Shown piece after piece: positions 5,032 through 20,916 of a stretch of 21,193 nucleotides of DNA (position 1 is the first letter of the stretch; every line of letters begins with the position of its first letter). The position numbers were made by a program, and so were the translations under genes. The stretch comes from a virus. The notes beneath the pieces are model-generated. The model did not search any database, was not told where the DNA came from, and saw only the letters and a list, made by a program, of their open reading frames with translations. The stretch lies in IMG/VR virus record IMGVR_UViG_3300047557_003611, positions 1 through 21,193 of that record. One strand, written 5' to 3'.

Positions 5032-7308
5032 GTGGCTAATAGGCGGATCACCGAGTTACCTGCAATTTCGGCGTCAAGCATTAATGACGACGATCTTTTA
5101 ATGGTCGTTGACGTTGCGGAGGTTGATCCTGGTTTAAAGAATAAAAAACTTACTTTTATTGATACTCGGCAATATTTAAATACTTATTACCTTCAATTAA
5201 GTGGAGGAACCATTGCCGGTTCGCTAACAATTGCGAACGACCTGGTTGTTAGCGGTAACTACACGCAAACAAATTTAACGGTAACCGGTAGTGGTTTCTT
5301 TGGCCAGATTTTAGTAACCGGAAATTTACAAACGTCAGGTACTATTTCTGGCGCTGTAATTACCGGTGATTCAATTCAAGGTTTAAATATTAATGCAACC
5401 ACTGGTAACTTTACTAATTTTATTGTCGGCACTCAAACTGCCGGTACAGGTAATTTTACCCGGGTTAGCGGTACAACTATTACAGGAAATACTGTAACTA
5501 TTGGCACCGGTACTGCACTGAGTTTTAGTGGCACAAGCGGTAATTTCAGTTCTTTATCCGGCACCAATGTCACAGGTGTAACCATTGTCGGCACAACTCA
5601 AATTTCTGGTGCAATTATTAGTGGTGATGCCGGAAGATTTGCAAACATTACTGGCGTCTCTGGTGTCTTTACCACCAGGCTTTCAGGTTTAACTATTACC
5701 GGCGCCACTGGTTTATTTGCAACATTAACGGGTGTTTCCGGAACTTTTACAAACGTTTCAGGCAACACCGTAACTGGAGCAACTGGTTTATTTAGTCAAA
5801 TCACAGGTGGTTCTGGAACGTTTACACGGGTTTCTGGTACCACAATTACGGGTGCAACCGGTTTATTTACAAACATTACCGGTAGCCTGGGCACTTTTAC
5901 CAACCAAATTTCCGGTGCAACAATTACCGGAAATAATGGTCAGTTTTCAAATATTACCGGCGTTTCTGGTGTCTTTACGACACAGATTTCCGGCACGACA
6001 ATCACTGGCGCAACGGGCCTGTTCAGTCAAATTACAGGAGGCTCTGGGACATTCACTCGAATTTCAGGTACAACGGTAACTGGAGCAACTGGTTTATTTA
6101 GCCAGATAACAGCTTTATCTGGTACATTTACAAACTCAATTAGCATTCCGTCTATTGCTACTACAGGCAATATTACAGCGCAAGGCGATTTAATCATTAG
6201 TGGCAACGGAACAATTTCTTCCGGTTTTGTTGTAAGCGGAAGAATTTCTGGCGGAACGGTTACTGGTGTTACAGGTGCATTTGGTGAGCTAACCGCAAAC
6301 GAAATCTGGGGATTAACACAGATTTCCGGTCAAACAATTACTGGTGTCTCTGGTAATTTTACAAGATTAAACGGTGTCACTGGGGTTTTTACTAGTTCTT
6401 TAAGCGGTGCAACAATTACAGGTAATCGTGTTAATGGAACCAGCGGCACATTTGTCAGCGGTATCTTTACGGGCATTTCTGGAAATATTGTCACTGGTAA
6501 TACTGGTTTATTTGCAAACTTAACTGGTGTATCAGGTGTTTTTACCACTGAGCTTTCCGGATTATTTATTACAGGAAATACAGGCTCTTTTGGCACACTA
6601 ACTGGTGTAACTGGCGTATTTACCAGTTCTTTATCTGGTGCCACAATTACTGGCAATACCGGTTTATTTGAGCAATTAACAGGTGTTTCTGGAGCATTTA
6701 CAACCGTTTCTGGATCTACCGTAACAGGTACATCCGGCGAGTTTTCAAATCTTACTAGTGTTAGTGGTACTTTCACCACGCGTATTTCTGGTAACACAAT
6801 CACTGGAAACAATGCATCGTTTACAAACGTTACTGGTGTTTCCGGCATCTTCACATCGCAACTTTCTGGCGATACCGTTGTAGGCGAGTCTGCAACATTT
6901 GATTACGTCACTGGTAATACTCGAATTGAAAGCCCACGCATTTCAGGCACAACAATTGTTGGTGCAACAGGTCAAATTAATTTTGTTAGTGGCGCAACTG
7001 GTATTTTTACCAATAATATTTCTGGCACTTACATCACTGGCACTACAATTGAAGCGGTAACAGTTAATGCAACAACAGGTAATTTTACCGTTGCCAACTT
7101 TGTTGAAACAACCACTGGTGCAATTATTGTCAGTGGCTATGGTTTCTTTGGCGGAACACTTCAAGGTTTAATTATTCAGAGCAAGGCTGTTATTACAAGT
7201 AGTGTTGTGTTAAGCGGTGGTTACAATGGTATGTCAGCAGGACCCGTTGAAATTGCAACAGGAATTGTTGTTACAGTTCCCAGTGGTTCTTACTGGCGTA
7301 TTGTTTAA
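5032..7308 (+). CDS. Repetitive phage tail fibre protein
   Basis: Starts at GTG 5032. The first 50 residues (RITELPAISASSINDDDLLM, then VDVAE) are the common N-terminal module of phage tail fibres, probably the part that attaches to the tail. Residues about 191-662 hold roughly sixteen units of 25-26 residues of the form SG-TITG-TGLF--ITG-SGTFT, rich in Gly, Thr and Ser, expected to form a trimeric beta-helical shaft. A non-repeat interruption lies near residues 366-430. The C-terminus (MSAGPVEIATGIVVTVPSGS) resembles the end cap of other phage fibres. No chaperone or cleavage site is visible. It probably contacts the host surface together with the propeller proteins downstream. The long minus-strand ORF inside it is a repeat artefact. 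Confidence 0.88.
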   Translation: MANRRITELPAISASSINDDDLLMVVDVAEVDPGLKNKKLTFIDTRQYLNTYYLQLSGGTIAGSLTIANDLVVSGNYTQTNLTVTGSGFFGQILVTGNLQTSGTISGAVITGDSIQGLNINATTGNFTNFIVGTQTAGTGNFTRVSGTTITGNTVTIGTGTALSFSGTSGNFSSLSGTNVTGVTIVGTTQISGAIISGDAGRFANITGVSGVFTTRLSGLTITGATGLFATLTGVSGTFTNVSGNTVTGATGLFSQITGGSGTFTRVSGTTITGATGLFTNITGSLGTFTNQISGATITGNNGQFSNITGVSGVFTTQISGTTITGATGLFSQITGGSGTFTRISGTTVTGATGLFSQITALSGTFTNSISIPSIATTGNITAQGDLIISGNGTISSGFVVSGRISGGTVTGVTGAFGELTANEIWGLTQISGQTITGVSGNFTRLNGVTGVFTSSLSGATITGNRVNGTSGTFVSGIFTGISGNIVTGNTGLFANLTGVSGVFTTELSGLFITGNTGSFGTLTGVTGVFTSSLSGATITGNTGLFEQLTGVSGAFTTVSGSTVTGTSGEFSNLTSVSGTFTTRISGNTITGNNASFTNVTGVSGIFTSQLSGDTVVGESATFDYVTGNTRIESPRISGTTIVGATGQINFVSGATGIFTNNISGTYITGTTIEAVTVNATTGNFTVANFVETTTGAIIVSGYGFFGGTLQGLIIQSKAVITSSVVLSGGYNGMSAGPVEIATGIVVTVPSGSYWRIV
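5602..7017 (+). repeat. About sixteen 25-26-codon repeats in the tail fibre
   Basis: Each unit encodes (I/V/L)SG-x-T(I/V)TG-xTGLFxxxTGxSGxFT. The units are diverged at DNA level (synonymous differences are plentiful), unlike the propeller repeats downstream, so this array looks older or more constrained. A break between units 7 and 8 (about 6127-6320) contains non-canonical sequence. Confidence 0.8.
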
Positions 7309-8393: not shown

Positions 8394-10070
8394 ATGGCAT
8401 TAGAGACGTTTGAAGCTGGCTATGCCGGTGCTAACCCCCCGCGTTCTGGCACGCAATGGCAGGGGGTGTGGCGTCTCATGCAACAGGTAGATCGTATTAT
8501 TGACGAGAGCTGGCCACAGCCATGGTCGCTTGCTGGTACAAGGACAAAAAACGGATTTTTTTCAACAGGAACTGAACTAACACCAACAGGAATTTTTTTT
8601 AAACCTGACGGAACAAAATTTTATCTTACCGGACAAGCACTTGATTTAGTTCAAGAATATACTTGTGTTAAACCATGGGATATAAATACAGCATTTTTAA
8701 CGGGTTCGTTTAGTATTGCTGCACAAACAAGTACAGTAACAGCTTTGTTTTTTAAAGATGATGGAACTAAATTTTATGTGACAGGTGGTACTTCTGTACA
8801 TGAATACACGTTAAGCACATCGTGGAACATTAACACTGCTGTGTTTAACTTGTCTTTTAGTAATTCAGGACAAGATAGTTCTGTTTTTGGTTTTTATTTT
8901 AAACCTGATGGAACTAAATTTTATTTAGCGGGAGCCGGAAATGACAGAATATATCAGTACTCATGTGCTACCGCTTGGAATCTGGGCACGGCTTCCTATG
9001 ATAATGTGTCTTTTTCTGTAGCAGCTCAAGACGGAACACCAACAGGTGTTTGGTTTAAGCCTGATGGAACTAAATTTTATCTTACCGGACAAATTAATGA
9101 TTCTATTTATGAATATGATTGTTCTACTCCATGGGATATTTCAACGGCTTCCTATACTGTGGGAAATTTTTTAAACGTAGGAAATATTGTTGGCGGTAGT
9201 CCCAGGCAAATATATTTTAAAGATGACGGCACTACATTTTATTGCCTTGATAGTACTAGGACTAATTTAGTCGAACTTTATTGCCGTACTCCATGGCAAA
9301 TTAATACGGGATATACGTATATTTTTAGTACAGGCTCGCAAGATTCACTTGGCAATGATATATTTTTTAGGTCAGACGGAACAACTTTTTATCTTATTGG
9401 TGCCACAAGCGATACAGTGTATCAATACACATGCTCTACGGCCTGGGACCTAAGTACAGCAGCATACACTTCAAAATCATTTAGTGTTACAACGCAAGAA
9501 ACAACTCCGGCGGGATTATTTTTTAAAGATGACGGAACCAGGTTTTATGTTGTAGGGTCCACAAACGACACAGTATATCAATATTCATGCTCTACCGCAT
9601 GGGATGTAAGTACTGCATCATATGACAGTAAATCATTCAGTGTTACAACGCAAGAAAGCGCTCCAAATGGTCTATGTTTCAAAAATGACGGGACTAAATT
9701 TTATATTATAGGAACTGGAAGTGACGCGGTATATCAATACTCTTGCTCTACGGCATGGGACATAAGTACTGCTTTTTATGACTTTAAATCATTTAGTGTA
9801 TTTAACCAGGAGAACGCTCCTTTGGGGATTACTTTTAAAACGGATGGAACTGAATTTTATATTGTAGGACAAACAAATGACACGGTATATCAATACAGAT
9901 GCTTAACTGCCTGGGATATTTCAACTGCGTATTACACAGGCGTTTCTTTTAATATGTCAGCGTTAGACAATGATCCCAGGGGTTTATTTTTTAACCCGGA
10001 TGGACAAACGGTATATCTATTTGGAACTCAAAAAGATTTGATTTATCAGTGTCCTCTTTTATTAGAATAG
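8394..10070 (+). CDS. Beta-propeller-like repeat protein, 10 blade equivalents
   Basis: 558 residues. The first 40 residues are unique and precede the repeats. Then come nine full units of about 50-52 residues, of the form Q(E/D)xxPxGLFFKxDGTKFYxxGxTNDxVYQY, then xCSTAWDxSTAxY. A half unit at each end (PWSLAGTRTKNGFF at the start; DPRGLFFNPDGQTVYLFG at the end) would close a ring in the way WD-type propellers do, giving ten DGT-type and ten W-type motifs. Each canonical blade carries one Cys at the same position. Blades 1-5 are diverged, while blades 6-9 approach the consensus of the next gene. Probably a surface or tail protein that binds host glycans or receptors; binding is inferred. Confidence 0.75.
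   Translation: MALETFEAGYAGANPPRSGTQWQGVWRLMQQVDRIIDESWPQPWSLAGTRTKNGFFSTGTELTPTGIFFKPDGTKFYLTGQALDLVQEYTCVKPWDINTAFLTGSFSIAAQTSTVTALFFKDDGTKFYVTGGTSVHEYTLSTSWNINTAVFNLSFSNSGQDSSVFGFYFKPDGTKFYLAGAGNDRIYQYSCATAWNLGTASYDNVSFSVAAQDGTPTGVWFKPDGTKFYLTGQINDSIYEYDCSTPWDISTASYTVGNFLNVGNIVGGSPRQIYFKDDGTTFYCLDSTRTNLVELYCRTPWQINTGYTYIFSTGSQDSLGNDIFFRSDGTTFYLIGATSDTVYQYTCSTAWDLSTAAYTSKSFSVTTQETTPAGLFFKDDGTRFYVVGSTNDTVYQYSCSTAWDVSTASYDSKSFSVTTQESAPNGLCFKNDGTKFYIIGTGSDAVYQYSCSTAWDISTAFYDFKSFSVFNQENAPLGITFKTDGTEFYIVGQTNDTVYQYRCLTAWDISTAYYTGVSFNMSALDNDPRGLFFNPDGQTVYLFGTQKDLIYQCPLLLE
8571..10067 (+). repeat. Tandem blade repeats in the first propeller gene
   Basis: Nine full units of about 150-160 bp and one partial unit encode the DGTKFY / YQYSCSTAWD blade. 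The 5' units are diverged; the 3' units (from about 9330) resemble those of the following gene closely at DNA level. Confidence 0.8.
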
Positions 10071-10086: not shown

Positions 10087-12576
10087 ATGAAAGGTAATCT
10101 AATTGGCGCAAAACCTGGCTACGGTTCTTTGCCCCAAGGGCGCCGTGGTGTTTGGGAAATTTATGATCAAGAACAATTTGACCGTAATGGTTTATGGGCC
10201 GGAACACCTTGGGATGTAGATAAAGGGTTTTATACAGATAAAAAATGGACGGTTGGTATTGGTGAGACATCGCCTCAAGATGTAGCTTTTAAGTCTGACG
10301 GAACCAAATTTTATATTATTGGAACTACAAACGACACAGTGTATCAATATTCCTGTTCTACCGCATGGGATGTAAATACTGCCTTCTATGACAATAAATT
10401 ATTTAGTGTTGCAACGCAAGAAAACAGTCCAACAGGATTATTTTTTAAAAATGATGGAACCAAATTTTATGTTATTGGAACTACAAACGACACAGTGTAT
10501 CAATATTCTTGTTCTACAGCATGGGACATAAGTACTGCATCATATGACAGTAAGTCATTTAGTGTTGCAACGCAAGAAAATGGTCCACAAGCATTATTTT
10601 TTAAAAATGATGGCACTAAATTTTATATTATTGGAACTACGAACGACACAGTGTATCAATATTCATGCTCTACCGCATGGGATGTAAGTACTGCATCATA
10701 TGACAGTAAGTCATTTAGTGTTACGACGCAAGAAAATGCTCCAACAGGATTATTTTTTAAAAATGATGGCACTATATTTTATATTGTAGGAATTACAAAC
10801 GATACTATTTATCAATACTCATGCTCTACGGCATGGGATATAAGTACTGCTTCTTACGCCAGTAAACTGTGTAGATTTACTTTTGAAGGATCACCTACCG
10901 GAATTGCTTTTAAAGATGATGGTACAAAGTTATATGCAATTGGAAGTGCAAATACAAGACTATTTGAATTTAATTTATCTGTTGCTTGGGATGTAAGCAC
11001 AAATAACACAGCAGACGGTGGATTTTTTATTGGCACGCAGGAAACGGATGCTGCTGATTTATTTTTTAAATCTGACGGAACTAAATTTTACATTATAGGA
11101 ACTACGAACGACACAATATATCAATATTTATGCTCTACCGCATGGGATGTAAGCACTGCCTCCTATGACAGTAAATCATTCAGTGTTACGACGCAAGAAA
11201 ATGCTCCACAAGCATTATTTTTTAAAAATGATGGCACTAAATTTTATATTATTGGAACTACGAACGACACAATATATCAATATTCATGCTCTACCGCATG
11301 GGATGTAAGTACTGCATCCTATGACAGTAAATCATTCAGTGTTACGACGCAAGAAAATGCTCCACAAGCATTATTTTTTAAAAATGATGGCACTAAATTT
11401 TATATTATTGGAACTACGAACGACACAATATATCAATATTCATGCTCTACCGCATGGGATGTAAGTACTGCATCCTATGACAGTAAATCATTTAGTGTTA
11501 CAACGCAAGAAAATGCTCCAACTGGATTATTTTTTAAAGCCGACGGAACCAAATTTTATATTATTGGAGGTACAAACGACACAGTATATCAATATTCATG
11601 CTCTACCGCATGGGATGTAAGTACTGCATCGTATGACAATAAATCATTTAGTGTTACGACGCAAGAAAATGCTCCACGTTCAATAGTATTTAAATCTGAC
11701 GGAACTAAATTTTATACTGTAGGAACTGCAAATGATACCGTTTATCAATACGATTTACCTCTTGCATGGGATGTTGTTAATGCAGGATTTACCGCTAAAA
11801 ATGTAAATATTCAAATGCAAGATACAGCACCTCAGGATATAACTTTTAAACCAGATGGAACTCGTTTTTATGTAGCTGGAAATACAACAGATTCAATATA
11901 TCAATATGATTGTAGTAATCCCTGGGACATTGCAACAGCTACATTTAACAGGGTGGCCAGCGGTGCTTTTGCACGTGCACGGGTTAGCTTTCAAGATACA
12001 ACACCAGTTGGAATAGTGTTTAAAGATGATGGAACTAAATTCTATATTATTGGACAAACAAATGATACCATTTATCAATACTCATGTTCTACTGCATGGG
12101 ATGTAAGCACTGCATCATATGACAGTAAATCATTCAGTGTTACGACACAAGAAAACACTCCAACAGGATTATTTTTTAAACCTGATGGAACTAAATTTTA
12201 TGTTATTGGACAAATAAACGACACAGTATATCAATATTCATGCTCCACTGCATGGGATGTAAGTACAGCATCATACGACAGTAAATCATTTAGTGTTGCA
12301 ACACAAGAGACTACTCCACAAGGATTATTTTTTAAAGAGGATGGTACTAAGTTGTATGTGGCAGGAATTTCAAGTGACATTATACATCAATATTCTTGCT
12401 CTACGCCATGGGATATAGGCACTGCATCATATGAAAATAAATTTTTAAACGTAGTTGCGCAAACAACAGATAGCAGGGGCGTATGCCTTGGTTATTACGG
12501 AAGCATTTTATACATTATTGATGGCACTGCTTCTGCAACAGTTGTTCCGGGTGTTTATCAGTATTATCTGTCATAA
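10087..12576 (+). CDS. Giant beta-propeller-like repeat protein, 15 blade equivalents
   Basis: 829 residues, 16 nt after the paralogous gene. A short N-terminal leader (MKGNLIGAKPGYGSLPQGRR) precedes a half blade (TPWDVDKGFYTDKKW). Fourteen full 52-residue blades (about residues 58-790) follow, and a terminal half blade (about 791-829) ends the protein, again allowing ring closure. The consensus blade is FFKNDGTKFYIIGTTNDT, then VYQYSCSTAWDVSTASYDS, then KSFSVTTQENAP. Blades 7 and 8 are identical even at DNA level; blades 5, 10 and 11 are the most diverged. There is no signal peptide or catalytic motif. The layout (unique leader, long repeat, tail-gene context) suits a receptor-binding tail appendage or virion decoration; a secreted binding protein is a lesser alternative. 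Confidence 0.75.
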   Translation: MKGNLIGAKPGYGSLPQGRRGVWEIYDQEQFDRNGLWAGTPWDVDKGFYTDKKWTVGIGETSPQDVAFKSDGTKFYIIGTTNDTVYQYSCSTAWDVNTAFYDNKLFSVATQENSPTGLFFKNDGTKFYVIGTTNDTVYQYSCSTAWDISTASYDSKSFSVATQENGPQALFFKNDGTKFYIIGTTNDTVYQYSCSTAWDVSTASYDSKSFSVTTQENAPTGLFFKNDGTIFYIVGITNDTIYQYSCSTAWDISTASYASKLCRFTFEGSPTGIAFKDDGTKLYAIGSANTRLFEFNLSVAWDVSTNNTADGGFFIGTQETDAADLFFKSDGTKFYIIGTTNDTIYQYLCSTAWDVSTASYDSKSFSVTTQENAPQALFFKNDGTKFYIIGTTNDTIYQYSCSTAWDVSTASYDSKSFSVTTQENAPQALFFKNDGTKFYIIGTTNDTIYQYSCSTAWDVSTASYDSKSFSVTTQENAPTGLFFKADGTKFYIIGGTNDTVYQYSCSTAWDVSTASYDNKSFSVTTQENAPRSIVFKSDGTKFYTVGTANDTVYQYDLPLAWDVVNAGFTAKNVNIQMQDTAPQDITFKPDGTRFYVAGNTTDSIYQYDCSNPWDIATATFNRVASGAFARARVSFQDTTPVGIVFKDDGTKFYIIGQTNDTIYQYSCSTAWDVSTASYDSKSFSVTTQENTPTGLFFKPDGTKFYVIGQINDTVYQYSCSTAWDVSTASYDSKSFSVATQETTPQGLFFKEDGTKLYVAGISSDIIHQYSCSTPWDIGTASYENKFLNVVAQTTDSRGVCLGYYGSILYIIDGTASATVVPGVYQYYLS
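10258..12573 (+). repeat. Tandem 156-bp blade repeats in the second propeller gene
   Basis: Fourteen full units, mostly exactly 52 codons (156 bp), plus a partial one. The units between about 10390 and 10850 and between 11100 and 11690 are near-identical at DNA level, while the interrupting units (about 10850-11040 and 11690-12000) are diverged. Confidence 0.85.
11161..11472 (+). repeat. Exact tandem duplication of a 156-bp unit
   Basis: Positions 11161-11316 and 11317-11472 are identical by direct base comparison, and identity continues for about 20 nt into the next unit. With no synonymous change, this is a very recent duplication or gene-conversion event, or possibly an assembly effect in a repeat. 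Confidence 0.9.
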
Positions 12577-15308: not shown

Positions 15309-15971
15309 TTACTCGTCTGGTTCTCTGTGCTCCAAGGGGTTGGAGATAACGCTTTTAAAAGAACGTTCAAGAATTAAAGGATTTCCTTTTTGTTTGCTGT
15401 AAAGCATTAATTTTTTTGGTTCAAATTCCAGAACAAGTGGATGGATATTATGCGGTGGGAACAAACGATTCCAGCTGGAAACAAGGTGCAAAGGATTTGC
15501 GCATAAAGAGTTTCCACATATGCGTGTAACAACATGTGTTCCAATATCTCCCCAGGCACATTGATAAATTGCTTTATGGATTGTTACGTTTTCTGATTTT
15601 TGTTTGCTGTAAAACGAGCGGTATGAAGGAAGGCAAACTCGCTTAGGCACGTAAACAGAATTGTTTTTTATCTCCCAGCAGTCGTCCATATCTTTGACAT
15701 TTATTTTGCACCAAAGGCTGTGATATTTAATCTTGTAATCGGTATGAATGTAATTGATGTCAAAACCACAAACGTTTGAAAGAATTTTTTTAACGCAGAA
15801 ATAACACCAATGCTGGGAGGTATCTCTGATTGTATGGTTATGAGGACAAGCAAATCCTCTGTAGTAACCGTTGTTTTCAAGGACATAATCTGAAAGATGC
15901 TGGATATCTGCCAGATATCGAAAGCCAGATTCAACTTCAGCTTCTTTAAGTTTTTGGTGACGGTTTGCCAT
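15309..15971 (-). CDS. HNH-type endonuclease-like protein with zinc motif
   Basis: 220 aa. Two Cys/His clusters stand out. The first is GFACPHNHTIRDTSQHWCYF (39-58), with Cys42, His44, His46, Cys56 and Cys59, a probable zinc site. The second is a C-terminal HNH-like block: Cys99-Trp-Glu, then His132-Lys in the Ile-His-Lys-Ala-Ile-Tyr helix, then CGNSLCANPLHL (152-163), which matches the C-x4-C-x-NP-x-H-L ending of HNH_3-type nucleases. The product may be a free-standing homing endonuclease or a packaging-related nuclease. It is joined to the upstream gene through a TAATG overlap. No intron or obvious interrupted gene is visible nearby. Confidence 0.65.
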   Translation of the reverse strand: MANRHQKLKEAEVESGFRYLADIQHLSDYVLENNGYYRGFACPHNHTIRDTSQHWCYFCVKKILSNVCGFDINYIHTDYKIKYHSLWCKINVKDMDDCWEIKNNSVYVPKRVCLPSYRSFYSKQKSENVTIHKAIYQCAWGDIGTHVVTRICGNSLCANPLHLVSSWNRLFPPHNIHPLVLEFEPKKLMLYSKQKGNPLILERSFKSVISNPLEHREPDE

Positions 15972-16315: not shown

Positions 16316-16433
16316 AGTGTCATTGAAACCGAGAACAGCCTAGCAGCGTGCAGAGAAACAGAGAATTAGGTTAATTTTTCTTTTATATCAGTTAAATGAC
16401 ACTTTGGGTTAATAGTGTCATTAAAACCGAGAA
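16316..16433 (+). repeat. 20-nt direct repeat pair
   Basis: AGTGTCATTGAAACCGAGAA (16316-16335) and AGTGTCATTAAAACCGAGAA (16414-16433) match in 19 of 20 positions, 98 bp apart. Confidence 0.85.
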
Positions 16434-16583
16434 TATATAGTTACCGTGTGCTCTTAATTAAAAACAATCAAATAAAAGTTTATCCCTTAAATATAAATTC
16501 TTAGAAAACATTACACCCCTATCCCAAAGTGTCATTTTTCCAATAAGGGGTTGAAAAGGGGGTAATTCTCTGTTTCTCTGCAC
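16348..16583. repeat. 21-bp perfect terminal inverted repeats (236-bp span)
   Basis: The left arm (16348-16368, starting GTGCAGAGAAACAG) and the right arm (16563-16583, ending TGTTTCTCTGCAC) are exact reverse complements. Both are flanked outside by AGC (16345-16347 and 16584-16586), which could be a 3-bp target duplication or chance. No transposase is present. Confidence 0.8.
16394..16537. repeat. 15-bp perfect inner inverted repeats
   Basis: AAATGACACTTTGGG (16394-16408) and CCCAAAGTGTCATTT (16523-16537) are exact reverse complements, nested inside the 21-bp pair. They contain the AGTGTCATT element also present in direct orientation at 16316 and 16414. Confidence 0.8.
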
Positions 16584-16595
16584 AGCACCTATCCA

Positions 16596-16622
16596 GCATG
16601 CGTCTCATGATGAGATTCATGC
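16596..16622. repeat. Small interrupted palindrome beside the terminator
   Basis: GCATG (16596-16600) pairs with CATGC (16618-16622), and inside it TCTCAT (16603-16608) pairs with ATGAGA (16610-16615) around a single G. It follows the terminator of the minus-strand operon and could be a second hairpin or a binding dyad. Confidence 0.5.
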
Positions 16623-16628
16623 GGCATG

Positions 16629-16649
16629 AAAAAGCCCCCGGTTGGGGGC
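16629..16649 (-). terminator. Rho-independent terminator of the primase-speD-glycosyltransferase operon
   Basis: Read on the minus strand, GCCCCC, loop AACC and GGGGGC (16649-16634) are followed by five T (16633-16629). The hairpin begins 7 nt after the glycosyltransferase stop codon. It is a strong intrinsic terminator by form. Confidence 0.88.
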
Positions 16650-16655
16650 GAAGGA

Positions 16656-17900
16656 TCAGTCTTTTTTCTTTTTCTTACCTGTCTTAGGTTTGACAATCTT
16701 TGGTTCTTCTTCCCGCTGTGCAAGTGCCTCCTGGAAGACCCCATCAAATTGATCGGCTACCGTGTCCCAGTCAAAGCGCTCTTCTGTTGCTCGCTCATAG
16801 CAGGCATCAGCAACCCGCTGGAGCAGCACACGGTCTTCATACACTGCTGCCAGCAGCTCAGCCAGGTGGTTGTCGTCTGGACATGGCATGATCCGACCGA
16901 AGTTGGTATCCACGTCCGCATGGAGGGAACGGATCAGGAGACCTGCACCCTCAAAGATTTCTTTACAGGACGTATGGTCTGGAACAATTTGTGCTACGCG
17001 GCAGGCGGCATGCTCAAAGTTGACCAGGCCCCAGCCCTCACCCTTACAGGTATTGACGCCGACATCGACTGCGCTGTAGATGGTATTCAGCATCTCCACC
17101 GGCACCGAAGGGGGATGGGCATGGGGAGTTGTCATGATGATCCGGTTGTTGGGATCAAGACCTTGCCGCATCATTTCACGTGCAAACAACGGCATGATGT
17201 CCCAGCCCTGGTCCTTAAGACCCATGTGCAAATACAGTTTTGCATTGGGGCGGTCAACTGCAAACTTGGCAAATGCACTGACAGTAATGTCAATACGTTT
17301 ACGGAACTGGTTGCGGTTGCCATTGAAAACAATGAAATCATCCGGATTTAATCCCAGCTCTTTACGCGCTTCCAGCTTGTCTTTGGGATGGAATTGACCT
17401 CGTGTTACGCCATGGGGAATAACAGTAATTGGTTTGGTGGCACCCGCATTAATGGTTTCTTGCGCCCCAAATTCCGTGTAGCAGATTGCTACATCCCATT
17501 CATTAAGCGTATCTACAAGAGCTGAATACCACTCATATGAATCCATGGGGTAATAACCCACGAATTTAAAATTAAGCTGATCACGAAGATCAGCGATACG
17601 ACGCCACTGTTCGTTGATGATCCAGCTGTCGTTAATAGTGAAAACAATATCCGGTTTAATTTGTTCAACAATTTCACGAATGCGATCTTCACCAAAAGGT
17701 GCCTGCTGGAATCGATTGGATGCTGGGTACATCCGATACTCCTCCTGGAGCGGAGTGTAGTCACCATGCCAGTTGCAACCCAGGACATGGATTTCGTACT
17801 TATCTTTTAGACGACTGAGTACGTTTTCTGTGACACGGGCAAAACCCGTCATGGCGACAATGTCCCCAATCCACAAAAGCTTAGGCTTGTTTTCAGTCAT
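16656..17900 (-). CDS. Glycosyltransferase, GT4 family (GT-B fold)
   Basis: 414 aa. The N-terminal half has a nucleotide-fold start (KLLWIGDIVAMTGFARVTEN, residues 7-26) with the Gly-rich loop typical of GT4 enzymes. The C-terminal half has IPHGV (161-165), the sugar-nucleotide segment FNGNRNQFRKRID (192-204) and the EX7E motif GEGWGLVNFEHA (287-298, Glu288 and Glu296), followed by a TSCKEIF loop. It should transfer a sugar from a nucleotide-sugar donor. The acceptor is unknown; candidates are modified phage DNA bases, virion proteins or host surface glycans. The tail is Lys-rich (KTGKKKKKD). It starts at ATG 17900, 29 nt after speD, and ends 7 nt before a strong terminator. Confidence 0.85.
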   Translation of the reverse strand: MTENKPKLLWIGDIVAMTGFARVTENVLSRLKDKYEIHVLGCNWHGDYTPLQEEYRMYPASNRFQQAPFGEDRIREIVEQIKPDIVFTINDSWIINEQWRRIADLRDQLNFKFVGYYPMDSYEWYSALVDTLNEWDVAICYTEFGAQETINAGATKPITVIPHGVTRGQFHPKDKLEARKELGLNPDDFIVFNGNRNQFRKRIDITVSAFAKFAVDRPNAKLYLHMGLKDQGWDIMPLFAREMMRQGLDPNNRIIMTTPHAHPPSVPVEMLNTIYSAVDVGVNTCKGEGWGLVNFEHAACRVAQIVPDHTSCKEIFEGAGLLIRSLHADVDTNFGRIMPCPDDNHLAELLAAVYEDRVLLQRVADACYERATEERFDWDTVADQFDGVFQEALAQREEEPKIVKPKTGKKKKKD

Positions 17901-17929: not shown

Positions 17930-18283
17930 CTATTTACTAGGCGTAACCGATCTAATTAACTCTTTTTCTTCACTGATCTGCGCTTTTAATTTTTTTGTGA
18001 GGAATTCTGCTGCTTTATGCGAATTAGTTGTATCTCCACAGGTATACAGATCGATAGCTGCATAACCAAGCTCAGGCCATGTATGGATAGAGCAGTGTGA
18101 TTCAGCCAGCAGGGCAAGAAGTGTTACACCCTGCGGCTGAAATTTTTGCCCAAATACCCGAAGAATTGTGGCATTGGACATCTGCAGTGCAGTCTCCATG
18201 AGGGACTGAAGGCCCTGGTAGTCATCCAACAACTGTTTATCACAGTCGTAGAGATCCAGAATTAAATGGCGTCCGTTGCTCAA
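17930..18283 (-). CDS. speD: S-adenosylmethionine decarboxylase proenzyme (SpeD)
   Basis: 117 aa, the normal length of bacterial class 1b SpeD. The protein opens GRHLILDLYDCD as in the family and holds the self-cleavage site LLAESHCSIHTWPELGYAAI (58-77). Ser62 should become the pyruvoyl group after cleavage between Glu61 and Ser62; His67 and Cys82 (in DLYTCGD) match the processing and catalytic residues of the Thermotoga enzyme (His68, Cys83). The product, decarboxylated AdoMet, feeds spermidine synthesis. speD is a known auxiliary gene of marine cyanophages. Translation starts at TTG 18283, overlapping the primase TGA stop in a TTGA junction, so the gene is probably coupled to the primase-helicase. 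No ATG is available before the conserved GRHL. Confidence 0.93.
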   Translation of the reverse strand: MSNGRHLILDLYDCDKQLLDDYQGLQSLMETALQMSNATILRVFGQKFQPQGVTLLALLAESHCSIHTWPELGYAAIDLYTCGDTTNSHKAAEFLTKKLKAQISEEKELIRSVTPSK

Positions 18284-20916
18284 AAATCTTCTTCAACTAT
18301 TTCCATTTTTGCATTAGTCTTCCTTGTCAGAACATCTCCATAAAATTGTTGCCACTCTTCTTTGTTGAGACCCACTTCCATGATTGATGGATACTTCTCG
18401 TATTTGGTGGGATTAGATGCGCGAGGGGCAAGGTTGTTGACACGCAGCCCCCTATTAGTATTCATTTTGTACACGTTGATCCCAAGCTGGTGAATACATA
18501 CGTCCATCAGTAGGGATTCAAAACGGCTGCGACCAAGGATATTGCCATTGCTGCCACGAGAGAATTCGCAGTAGCTGGCATAGAGCCACTTGTCCCAGTT
18601 GTTGTACACATACGTTGTACCCCCTGCACCTGTCTTGGCCAAGCCCACAGGAGTTGAAACACCTGGATCAAATACCACACAGTGGCTCATCCAATCAAGA
18701 ATCTGGTTGGATTTAAGGATCTGTTCACGGTGATGCTTGGCAAAGAAGTCAACCTTCTTATTTGTTTCCATCAAGTATTCCCGCATTTCTGCTTCGCTCA
18801 TGTCAAGCACCCAGTTCACAAGCCCTGGCAACAGAGAAGCAAACTCACCAAACGGACGCCCTTTATCATCCATGTCGATAAGAGTCCGTTGCTCAGCACT
18901 GGTGCCAGTAAACGGTTTATCAAAAGGAATGGTTAGACGACGACGAGCAAGACCAGAAGTTGGGTCAGTTGTTTGAATAGGTTCGTTGGCCGTGATCATG
19001 ACCAGGCCATTGAACTTAAACGGCTTCTGGCTCCCAGCCTGGAACTTGCGTTCATTACGAATTAAGTCACGACCGGTAATTGCTTTGAGCACAGAGACCG
19101 ATCCGCCATACCGCTCCACATCATTGAAGAGCAGAAGTTTTTTCTTGTAGAGGTTGGCGGTTTCAAACCGGTTCTTCTCCAGATGCTCCAGCGAGGAGAT
19201 CATGGCATTGTCATCCCCCACCAGTGCATGCGCCAGGTTGGAGTAAGTAGACTTACCCGATTTACCTGGGCCGACAATTTCAACAAACTTTTGGATCTCA
19301 GAGTGACTTAACAGCACAGCTCGAAGCCATGCCCTCAGAACCTGGGTACGTCCCCAGTTATTTTCCTGTGTTTCCTTTAACCATTTAATGATTGGTTCAC
19401 AGGTAGCAAATGGATCGTAATCATATGGAAGATGTTGTGTCATGTACAGCTCCCTGCTGAACGGGGAAATCTGCCGCGTTTCAATATTTAAAACACCGTT
19501 TTTAAATAGCAACAGTTCGTTGCCTTCATACCAGTCATCAAAGATGGTGGAAATTTTGAGCTGCTCTAACACATCGTTGATCAGATTCATGCTGTAGCCA
19601 CTGGGCAACAGCGCGTCTTTAATTTGTTCAAACTTGTTTTTGATATTGCCGCGCATCTCAGATTCAGACAGCTGAGACCACAGTCCTTTACTGGAATGTT
19701 CGTAGATAAAAAACGCTCCGTGCGGCTGGCTGTAATGGAGGTTTCCTTTGTACAGTTTGAGGAGCACATCGGTGACGACATCCGAGGATGGATTTCGTTT
19801 TTTCTGGTCCTTACCTTTTCCAGGTTTTGGTTTCTGCGGTGTTTCAATCCACGGTGATGCTGCCGTCAGCTCTTGAGTCGCCATCATTGTTTCTTTTGTT
19901 ATACCGAGATCCGCTTCTAGTTCTTCCAGAAGTTTGGATACATGATCAAGTGTTGCGTCATCCACAGGCATTGCCTTGTAATCCTGGGATGGTTGCCACC
20001 CATGTTCCTGAGCAATATGAATTAGTGAGCCAAGACCACGGCCACCGCCTTTACTAAAGGAAAGCCAACGCCTGTGACACTCACCTTCCCTATATTTATC
20101 CGACTGTTTAGACCATTCATCCCATTGATCAAGCAGTGATTCATCCAGTGATTGAAGCGACTGACCGATGGTGATCCAAACGTCGTAATCATCCGCAGCC
20201 TCTGGAGGCAATGACCACATTGCTTCAGTGGCCAGCTTCATATCCCGCTCAAGGGATATTTCTGCGTTGATTGCAAAACCTGGACCGACGTACCGCGTGG
20301 TTTCTTTTGCCGGAATACCTTGCTTTACATTTTTATTAATGATGAGTGTTAGCAACCATTCTGGGAATTCAGGAAGGTTTTCTATCCACTCAAAACCCAT
20401 GCCTTCTGCTGTGTAGTATCCTTCCGTTTCCGGATGGAGACCCATCAGCACACCCTGGTGACGCGACCAGAGAATCTCAAGTTTCTCTTTGTTGGTTTCA
20501 GCGTGCCATGTGTATTTGTTACGGACAAAATGTTTTTGTTTATCGCGGCTCAGCTTATATAGCTTGCGTTCACGCCCAGCTTTTCCGCTGCAGATCGTGA
20601 GCGTAGGCGGGAGAGCAACATCAAAATCTTCTTGTTCCGACAGTTCCTTGACAAGGGGATATACACTTAGGCCATCCACGTCTACCCATACCAATCCAAA
20701 GGGATGGTTGTAGACCGGACCACCAAGCAGGCCAATTGCCTTACAATCTCCGGTGATCAGCTCCTCTTCAATTTCCCTGACGCTAAATGGCTTGTTCTGC
20801 CAGCCCTGGATGTAAGGATCTTTGTTGGCACCCAGTGGAGTGAGGGGCCAGTCCAGGGGGATTAGATCGAGACGGATCTCCCCGGGCTTGAGTGCTTGCT
20901 GGTTTTTATTGGTCAT
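18280..20916 (-). CDS. Primase-helicase: AEP-type primase, PriCT-2, SF3 helicase (D5/P4 type)
   Basis: An 878-aa replication protein. Residues about 20-190 look like a PrimPol/AEP primase: a conserved WPLTPLGANKDP start, the metal-binding pair Asp79 and Asp81 in LVWVDVDG, then CSGKAGRERKLY and LEILWSRHQGVLMG. Residues about 229-300 match PriCT-2. The C-terminal half is a D5-type SF3 helicase: Walker A GPGKSGKST (549-557, Lys555), Walker B LLLFNDVE (594-601), the DLIRNERKFQ element (618-627), motif C VMITANEP with Asn644, and an ARRRLTIPF segment holding the likely arginine finger. It should unwind and prime phage DNA, as in P4 alpha and related phages. It overlaps the upstream small gene by 11 nt and speD by 4 nt. 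No DNA polymerase is in the window. Confidence 0.9.
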   Translation of the reverse strand: MTNKNQQALKPGEIRLDLIPLDWPLTPLGANKDPYIQGWQNKPFSVREIEEELITGDCKAIGLLGGPVYNHPFGLVWVDVDGLSVYPLVKELSEQEDFDVALPPTLTICSGKAGRERKLYKLSRDKQKHFVRNKYTWHAETNKEKLEILWSRHQGVLMGLHPETEGYYTAEGMGFEWIENLPEFPEWLLTLIINKNVKQGIPAKETTRYVGPGFAINAEISLERDMKLATEAMWSLPPEAADDYDVWITIGQSLQSLDESLLDQWDEWSKQSDKYREGECHRRWLSFSKGGGRGLGSLIHIAQEHGWQPSQDYKAMPVDDATLDHVSKLLEELEADLGITKETMMATQELTAASPWIETPQKPKPGKGKDQKKRNPSSDVVTDVLLKLYKGNLHYSQPHGAFFIYEHSSKGLWSQLSESEMRGNIKNKFEQIKDALLPSGYSMNLINDVLEQLKISTIFDDWYEGNELLLFKNGVLNIETRQISPFSRELYMTQHLPYDYDPFATCEPIIKWLKETQENNWGRTQVLRAWLRAVLLSHSEIQKFVEIVGPGKSGKSTYSNLAHALVGDDNAMISSLEHLEKNRFETANLYKKKLLLFNDVERYGGSVSVLKAITGRDLIRNERKFQAGSQKPFKFNGLVMITANEPIQTTDPTSGLARRRLTIPFDKPFTGTSAEQRTLIDMDDKGRPFGEFASLLPGLVNWVLDMSEAEMREYLMETNKKVDFFAKHHREQILKSNQILDWMSHCVVFDPGVSTPVGLAKTGAGGTTYVYNNWDKWLYASYCEFSRGSNGNILGRSRFESLLMDVCIHQLGINVYKMNTNRGLRVNNLAPRASNPTKYEKYPSIMEVGLNKEEWQQFYGDVLTRKTNAKMEIVEEDF

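Follow-up and report, generated by a model that had tools for sequence, protein, structure and literature searches.

A nested mirror-symmetric element past the primase operon

The window, by which we mean the whole stretch of viral DNA analysed (21,193 nt; IMG/VR record IMGVR_UViG_3300047557_003611), belongs to a clade of freshwater cyanobacterial viruses for which Synechococcus phage S-EIV1 is the only related isolate that we found. Its minus strand carries, in this order, the genes of a primase-helicase, a SpeD-like decarboxylase, and a glycosyltransferase, a terminator, a dyad-symmetric element, and the genes of two proteins that we call P114 and HNH220. The element lies 3' of the PrimPol-SF3 gene and past the terminator, with speD and the glycosyltransferase intervening in the window. 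The features of the locus are:

18280..20916, minus strand: primase-helicase with Prim-Pol, PriCT_2, D5_N, and DUF5906 (SF3) domains, all above Pfam cut-offs
17930..18283, minus strand: S-adenosylmethionine decarboxylase (speD-like), sharing the primase operon
16656..17900, minus strand: glycosyltransferase, the final gene ahead of the terminator
16634..16649, minus strand: intrinsic terminator closing the primase-speD-glycosyltransferase operon
16348..16583, minus strand: whole dyad-symmetric element, axis at 16465.5, given in the orientation of the neighbouring genes
16563..16583, minus strand: outer arm B, primase-proximal, GTGCAGAGAAACAGAGAATTA, with tandem CAGAGAA half-sites and then CCCCC; compared with relatives
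16509..16536, minus strand: inner palindrome A1, AATGACAC...GTGTAATG, whose outer half is the 15-bp-repeat arm 16523-16537
16409..16522, no strand: AT-rich core between the inner arms, 25.4% GC
16395..16422, minus strand: inner palindrome A2, AATGACACTATTAACCCAAAGTGTCATT, including the 15-bp-repeat arm 16394-16408
16375..16387, minus strand: TATAAAAGAAAAA, an instance of the TAWTAAAGATAAAAA motif that is conserved on the side nearer the genes; putative -10 promoter-like or unwinding tract
16348..16368, minus strand: outer arm B', perfect inverted copy of outer arm B
16316..16324, minus strand: lone A half-site immediately 5' of the start codon of P114
15971..16315, minus strand: P114, HNH_3-like, fold nearest I-HmuI, degenerate metal site; probable outer-arm binder
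15309..15971, minus strand: HNH220, His-Me-finger protein (I-PpoI/NFI/Smad-MH1-like) with Arg in place of the catalytic His; core gene of the clade

The first-pass annotation had described many of these repeats, accurately as far as it went. The perfect inverted repeats of 21 bp (16348-16368/16563-16583) and 15 bp (16394-16408/16523-16537) are there, as are the 20-nt direct repeat at 16316 and 16414 (19/20 identical), the 9-mer AGTGTCATT common to this repeat and the 15-bp arms, and the GAAACMGAGAA of the 21-bp arms, which the direct repeat also contains. The AT-rich core (25.4% GC, compared with 41.7% for the window) and the end of the primase-SF3 helicase operon at the element's border, marked by the terminator, were also borne out. 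Missed were the axis shared by the two inverted repeats (16348+16583 = 16394+16537 = 32931, hence 16465.5), the two palindromes formed by the A motifs, and the two HNH-like genes on the 3' side. Being co-axial, the inverted repeats make up one mirror-symmetric element of ~240 bp and not two separate repeats. Its summed co-axial dyad score (44) is the strongest in the window, the next being 19, and its best inverted repeat, at 21, is far beyond chance: 20 dinucleotide shuffles reached at most 12. In many relatives, a separate GTCTCA-N-TGAGAC-like palindrome recurs in the interval from the terminator to the outer arm (window ~16593-16620; locus L005, 7998 and 11907).

Place, symmetry, and letters in relatives and in unrelated phages

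We collected about 75 related loci from IMG/VR, 59 of them non-redundant, and used 13 near-complete genomes for genome-wide scans. With a co-axial axis score of at least 18 as the threshold, a comparable dyad was recovered in 38 of the 75 loci at the same place, after the terminator of the primase operon and before the two small genes. Most of the 59 non-redundant loci have nested arms on a common axis 5' of P114/HNH220, well above shuffles. The arm letters differ between lineages, while the symmetry is kept: in these comparisons, structure is conserved although sequence is not. A search for the same array in relatives, which the first-pass annotation had suggested, accordingly recovers the architecture but not the motif letters. 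In S-EIV1, the same place (7.7-8.1 kb) holds inverted and direct repeats with entirely different letters, including GGATATGTAAGAT three times and a 16-bp inverted repeat on nearly the same axis. The element is the top dyad of the genome in 5 of the 13 near-complete genomes (61 versus 23 for the next, 44 versus 16, 42 versus 18, 41 versus 16, and 25 versus 18). In the others, among them G002, G003, G004, G006, G008, G012, and S-EIV1, where symmetry is weak, it is not the top dyad and does not stand out. The AT-rich core is not universal among relatives (L055 is an example). Short-term compensation between arms was seen in only one (L061/L062) of seven sister pairs, with 3 double and 42 single changes. 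The case for covariation rests on that clade and on the long-term maintenance of symmetry, because the six other pairs lack compensation.

The position is more constant than the letters. The element is 3' of the primase on the same strand in all 57 loci with the primase in view, at a distance of 0.6-3.3 kb, and in 64 of the 68 loci anchored on HNH220. When the glycosyltransferase is elsewhere in the genome, the element still sits between the SpeD terminator and P114/HNH220. In four loci (L009, L011, L021, and L076), the module of element, (P114), and HNH220 comes after speD and ahead of the glycosyltransferase, not behind the latter, implying that either the module or the glycosyltransferase has moved. 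Elsewhere in the 13 genomes the motifs occur at chance level, leaving a single copy per genome; this rejects a genome-wide regulon, and no second repeat site of the kind seen in phage P4 (ori plus crr) was found in these genomes. The conserved A-rich motif shows no clear genome-wide recurrence as a promoter, and it keeps one orientation in relatives, which rejects an invertible segment.

We also scanned the complete genomes of four phages with BPP-1-like primases (BPP-1, BcepC6B, Acinetobacter 4316, and MR14). Just past the primase lies the top-ranked dyad of BcepC6B and of 4316, and the second-ranked one of BPP-1, whose first is a coding tandem repeat. The latter (BPP-1, 33229-33558) is a periodic coding repeat annotated VR2 and not a comparable true inverted repeat. 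The chance of such placement is small, for a set that is itself small and picked by primase similarity. The arms are tandem 9-bp repeats (TTTGCCTCG twice, GTGACGTTA twice, and GGGACGATA twice), and the cyanophage outer arms are also tandem, with half-sites of 8-10 bp. The three phages, all podoviruses, have homologous primase domains and a small gene following the dyad, DNA-binding where checked or so annotated; in BPP-1 the 78-aa product of this gene matches HTH_38 weakly. Their dyads differ from those of the cyanophages in being shorter (~100 bp) with a small centre, in the HTH-type downstream protein of BPP-1, and in the adjacent terminase genes, which come after the dyad with one small gene between. 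Pseudomonas phage MR14 has no such dyad past its primase, and in phage LR797314 (primase 34% identical) the top dyad is not beside the primase. MR14 carries at 43396-43586 tandem 10-bp repeats (ACAACCTGAG twice and TACAGCTAT-like twice) with a TATCTTTTTA tract, possibly a non-palindromic version of the post-primase dyad.

P114, HNH220, and the outer arms

Both small proteins resemble homing endonucleases of the HNH/His-Me type whose catalytic sites have degenerated. P114 matches the HNH_3 domain in 17 of 36 members (best 1.7e-7), and its model resembles I-HmuI (probability 0.84; Z 6.2, rmsd 7.3 over 89 residues). The metal-binding Asp before the His (position 83) is never D in any member, and position 96, the last Asn of the motif, is E, K, P, T, S, Q, D, or G but never N. 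HNH220 is found in all 15 genomes searched; it matches His-Me homing endonucleases and phage HNH families at their zinc loop and, weakly, I-PpoI by sequence. The zinc Cys/His residues and the Asn of the family motif (C152, C157, H162, and N168) are present in 50/50 sequences. At the position of the catalytic His98 of I-PpoI, 44 of the 50 have Arg and only two, both from divergent loci, have His. From these residues, we infer that catalysis has been lost in both proteins. Structural similarities of the HNH220 model are modest: NFI is nearest (Z 5.0, rmsd 3.9, 96 residues), with I-PpoI (Z 4.4, rmsd 5.5, 95 residues) and Smad MH1 (Z 4.1) behind. Grishin (2001, as cited in PMC4999995) described Smad MH1 as a homing endonuclease that has become degraded. 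Smad MH1 and NFI would be parallels for a fold related to the His-Me finger that binds DNA without nuclease activity; they differ in being eukaryotic transcription factors, the similarity is modest (Z about 5), and DNA binding by HNH220 is putative. In two loci (L056 and L077), P114 and HNH220 form one fused reading frame, and in L043 (7551-8243) HNH220 has an in-frame stop, from either a pseudogene or a sequencing error.

Nine near-identical phages link P114 to the outer arms. Their arms come in two versions, CGATAAAACCCCC and CGAGAATGCCCCC, and both sides always have the same one. Among 615 two-state sites in 3.6 kb, 23 perfectly follow the arm version. The left arm holds 6 of these and the right arm with the leader 4; P114 has 8 in codons 2-23 and another 3 in codons 80-81, and the other 2 lie elsewhere. 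Hence, 21 of the 23 are in the two arms with leader or in P114, and none lies between the arms in these phages. The A1 spacer (ACTG/CAGT) is found with both arm versions, indicating that recombination has reshuffled the core. This co-inheritance of the arms with the P114 N-terminus suggests that P114 is probably the protein that binds the outer arms, with positions 2, 5, 6, 13, 17, 23, and 81 as candidate specificity residues. Encoded beside the element, it appears a likelier arm binder than the N-terminus of the 878-aa protein, which the first-pass annotation had put forward for a binding assay. The co-switching comes from one clade; other clades gave no clean case of a similar switch, their small or clonal clusters making association trivial. 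Across relatives, about 40% of which lack the P114 gene, outer-arm class is associated with P114 presence (Fisher p = 5e-5, computed post hoc and ignoring phylogeny).

A candidate replication origin and its competitors

To our knowledge, the origins of PrimPol-SF3 phages are essentially unmapped. In our view, the element is best explained as a phage replication origin like those proposed in pRN1 and BIP-1 (probability roughly 0.6), a function that we infer from the observations above together with three precedents. In the Sulfolobus plasmid pRN1, replication requires a stem-loop that lies beyond the PrimPol-SF3 gene and its terminator; the letters of this stem-loop are not conserved but its structure is, and restoring the stem symmetry restored replication (PMC4234260). 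A stem-loop was also reported in Bordetella phage BIP-1, with a pRN1-type origin proposed (PMC4234260); it is possibly the BPP-1 dyad described above. In PLE satellites, the DNA-binding domain of RepA co-varies with ori (PMC8263062). The element resembles pRN1 in its PrimPol-SF3 protein, in a dyad past the gene and terminator, and in symmetry kept where sequence is not. It differs in its size (~240 bp, versus about 100 nt for the pRN1 stem-loop) and in the two HNH-derived genes that follow; its arms are nested and separated by unmatched stretches around a long core, even if the strand folds as one long imperfect hairpin, and the pRN1-type stem is nearly continuous with a small loop. The pRN1 origin has a demonstrated replication requirement, while the element is likened to it from sequence. 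As in PLE, a DNA-binding domain and its presumptive array co-vary in otherwise near-identical genomes, although the proteins differ and the PLE origin is proven where ours is a candidate. Phage P4 also has an SF3 primase-helicase beside repeated binding sites, but with a Toprim-type primase and two separate sites, ori and crr (general knowledge; see also PMC4234260), in place of a PrimPol and one mirror-symmetric site.

An origin tied to the primase-SF3 helicase, as already suggested by the first-pass annotation, is the reading with the best support: the element has a conserved post-operon place and a single copy, three of the four unrelated phages with the same primase domains have a dyad just past the primase, and pRN1 offers a precedent. 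The skew expected at an origin was not found: the cumulative GC-skew minimum is elsewhere in 13/13 genomes, and the element lies at a slope break, often a local maximum. As origin evidence the skew is negative, if confounded by transcription. The absence of P114 from many relatives, the weak symmetry of some elements, the non-universal AT-rich core, and the lack of an MR14 dyad also speak against an origin.

Each half of the element has a pair of tandem half-sites on the outside, then a C/T-rich tract, then the inner palindrome, and the two halves mirror each other across the AT-rich core. If the element is an origin, small DNA-binding proteins encoded next door would mark the site symmetrically, P114 on the outer arms and probably HNH220 on the inner palindromes. 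The SF3 helicase could then load as two opposed rings and open the core, where the PrimPol domain would prime. The gene-side half would probably also serve as promoter and operator of P114-HNH220, so that the origin may possibly double as the operator of its own DNA-binding genes. More tentatively, and with some doubt on our side, two nuclease-fold proteins lacking catalysis may have been domesticated for origin recognition and self-regulation, arms and recognition protein switching specificity together. If true, nuclease folds have been reused for origin recognition, and joint switching is what one expects of phages escaping origin incompatibility or origin-directed nucleases.

The strongest competitor is a site that acts as an operator and not as an origin, although the two roles are compatible: P114 and HNH220 would bind arms and palindromes and control their own promoter (the TATAAAGAT motif), perhaps by looping, with no part in replication. 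The element is directly 5' of P114-HNH220 and stays beside them when the glycosyltransferase is elsewhere, the A2 palindrome is just upstream of the conserved, strand-biased, -10-like TATAAAGAT motif, the start codon is bordered by an A half-site, the arms vary together with P114, and the motifs occur nowhere else in the genome. Yet neither a left half held in precise mirror register nor the linkage, seen in unrelated phages, to a PrimPol-SF3 primase is needed for such an operator, and we found no sigma-70 promoter match at the TATAAAAGAAAAA/TAWTAAAGATAAAAA motif; we consider regulation alone unlikely. Still less probable is a site for packaging or for another kind of site-specific DNA processing (cos/pac, resolution), with the nuclease-fold proteins recognising it. 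Their genes adjoin the element, terminase genes follow the dyad and one small gene in BPP-1, BcepC6B, and 4316, and the slope break or maximum in skew suits a terminus better than an origin. However, the S-EIV1 terminase is distant from the element (54.1-56.6 kb versus 7.7-8.1 kb), the catalytic His is missing from HNH220, the metal site of P114 has degenerated, and the S-EIV1 annotation contains no integrase or protelomerase.

A structured RNA (leader or ribozyme-like) transcribed with the P114-HNH220 operon would account for the folding of the strand into one long imperfect hairpin (z = -7.9 as RNA, -5.4 as single-stranded DNA). This reading is disfavoured, and we give it very little credit: among mirrored-arm mismatches on the coding strand of the 59 loci, A-C (299) outnumbers G-U (201), opposite to selection on an RNA helix, so the symmetry is not that of one; the arms are perfect and not G-U tolerant, and there is no Rfam match. 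Noncoding DNA bounded by inverted repeats, with AGC on both flanks, might also suggest an inserted MITE-like mobile repeat or a functionless chance repeat. Its occurrence at the same position in diverged phages with different arm letters, in single copy, vertically kept, and switching together with P114, excludes this for practical purposes.

A dyad origin past a PrimPol-SF3 gene is a kind already proposed, and with the element described here the proposal by Berkner et al. (PMC4234260) can be put to the test in phages. The analysis names a likely arm-binding protein, P114, with candidate specificity residues, and supplies a recognisable signature seen again in several unrelated phages: a co-axial nested dyad just past the primase and beside a small DNA-binding gene. 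As far as we know from a limited literature search, there is no earlier description of such a large layout of nested co-axial arms, of partner proteins whose nuclease sites have degenerated, or of the co-switching.

Elsewhere in the window, two long ORFs (8394-10070 and 10087-12576) consist of FKxDGTKFYIIGxTNDTVYQYSCSTAWDxSTASYDSKSFSV-like repeats. They adjoin a 758-aa ORF (5032-7308) rich in SGTTITGATGLF-type repeats, and all three probably encode tail or adhesion proteins.
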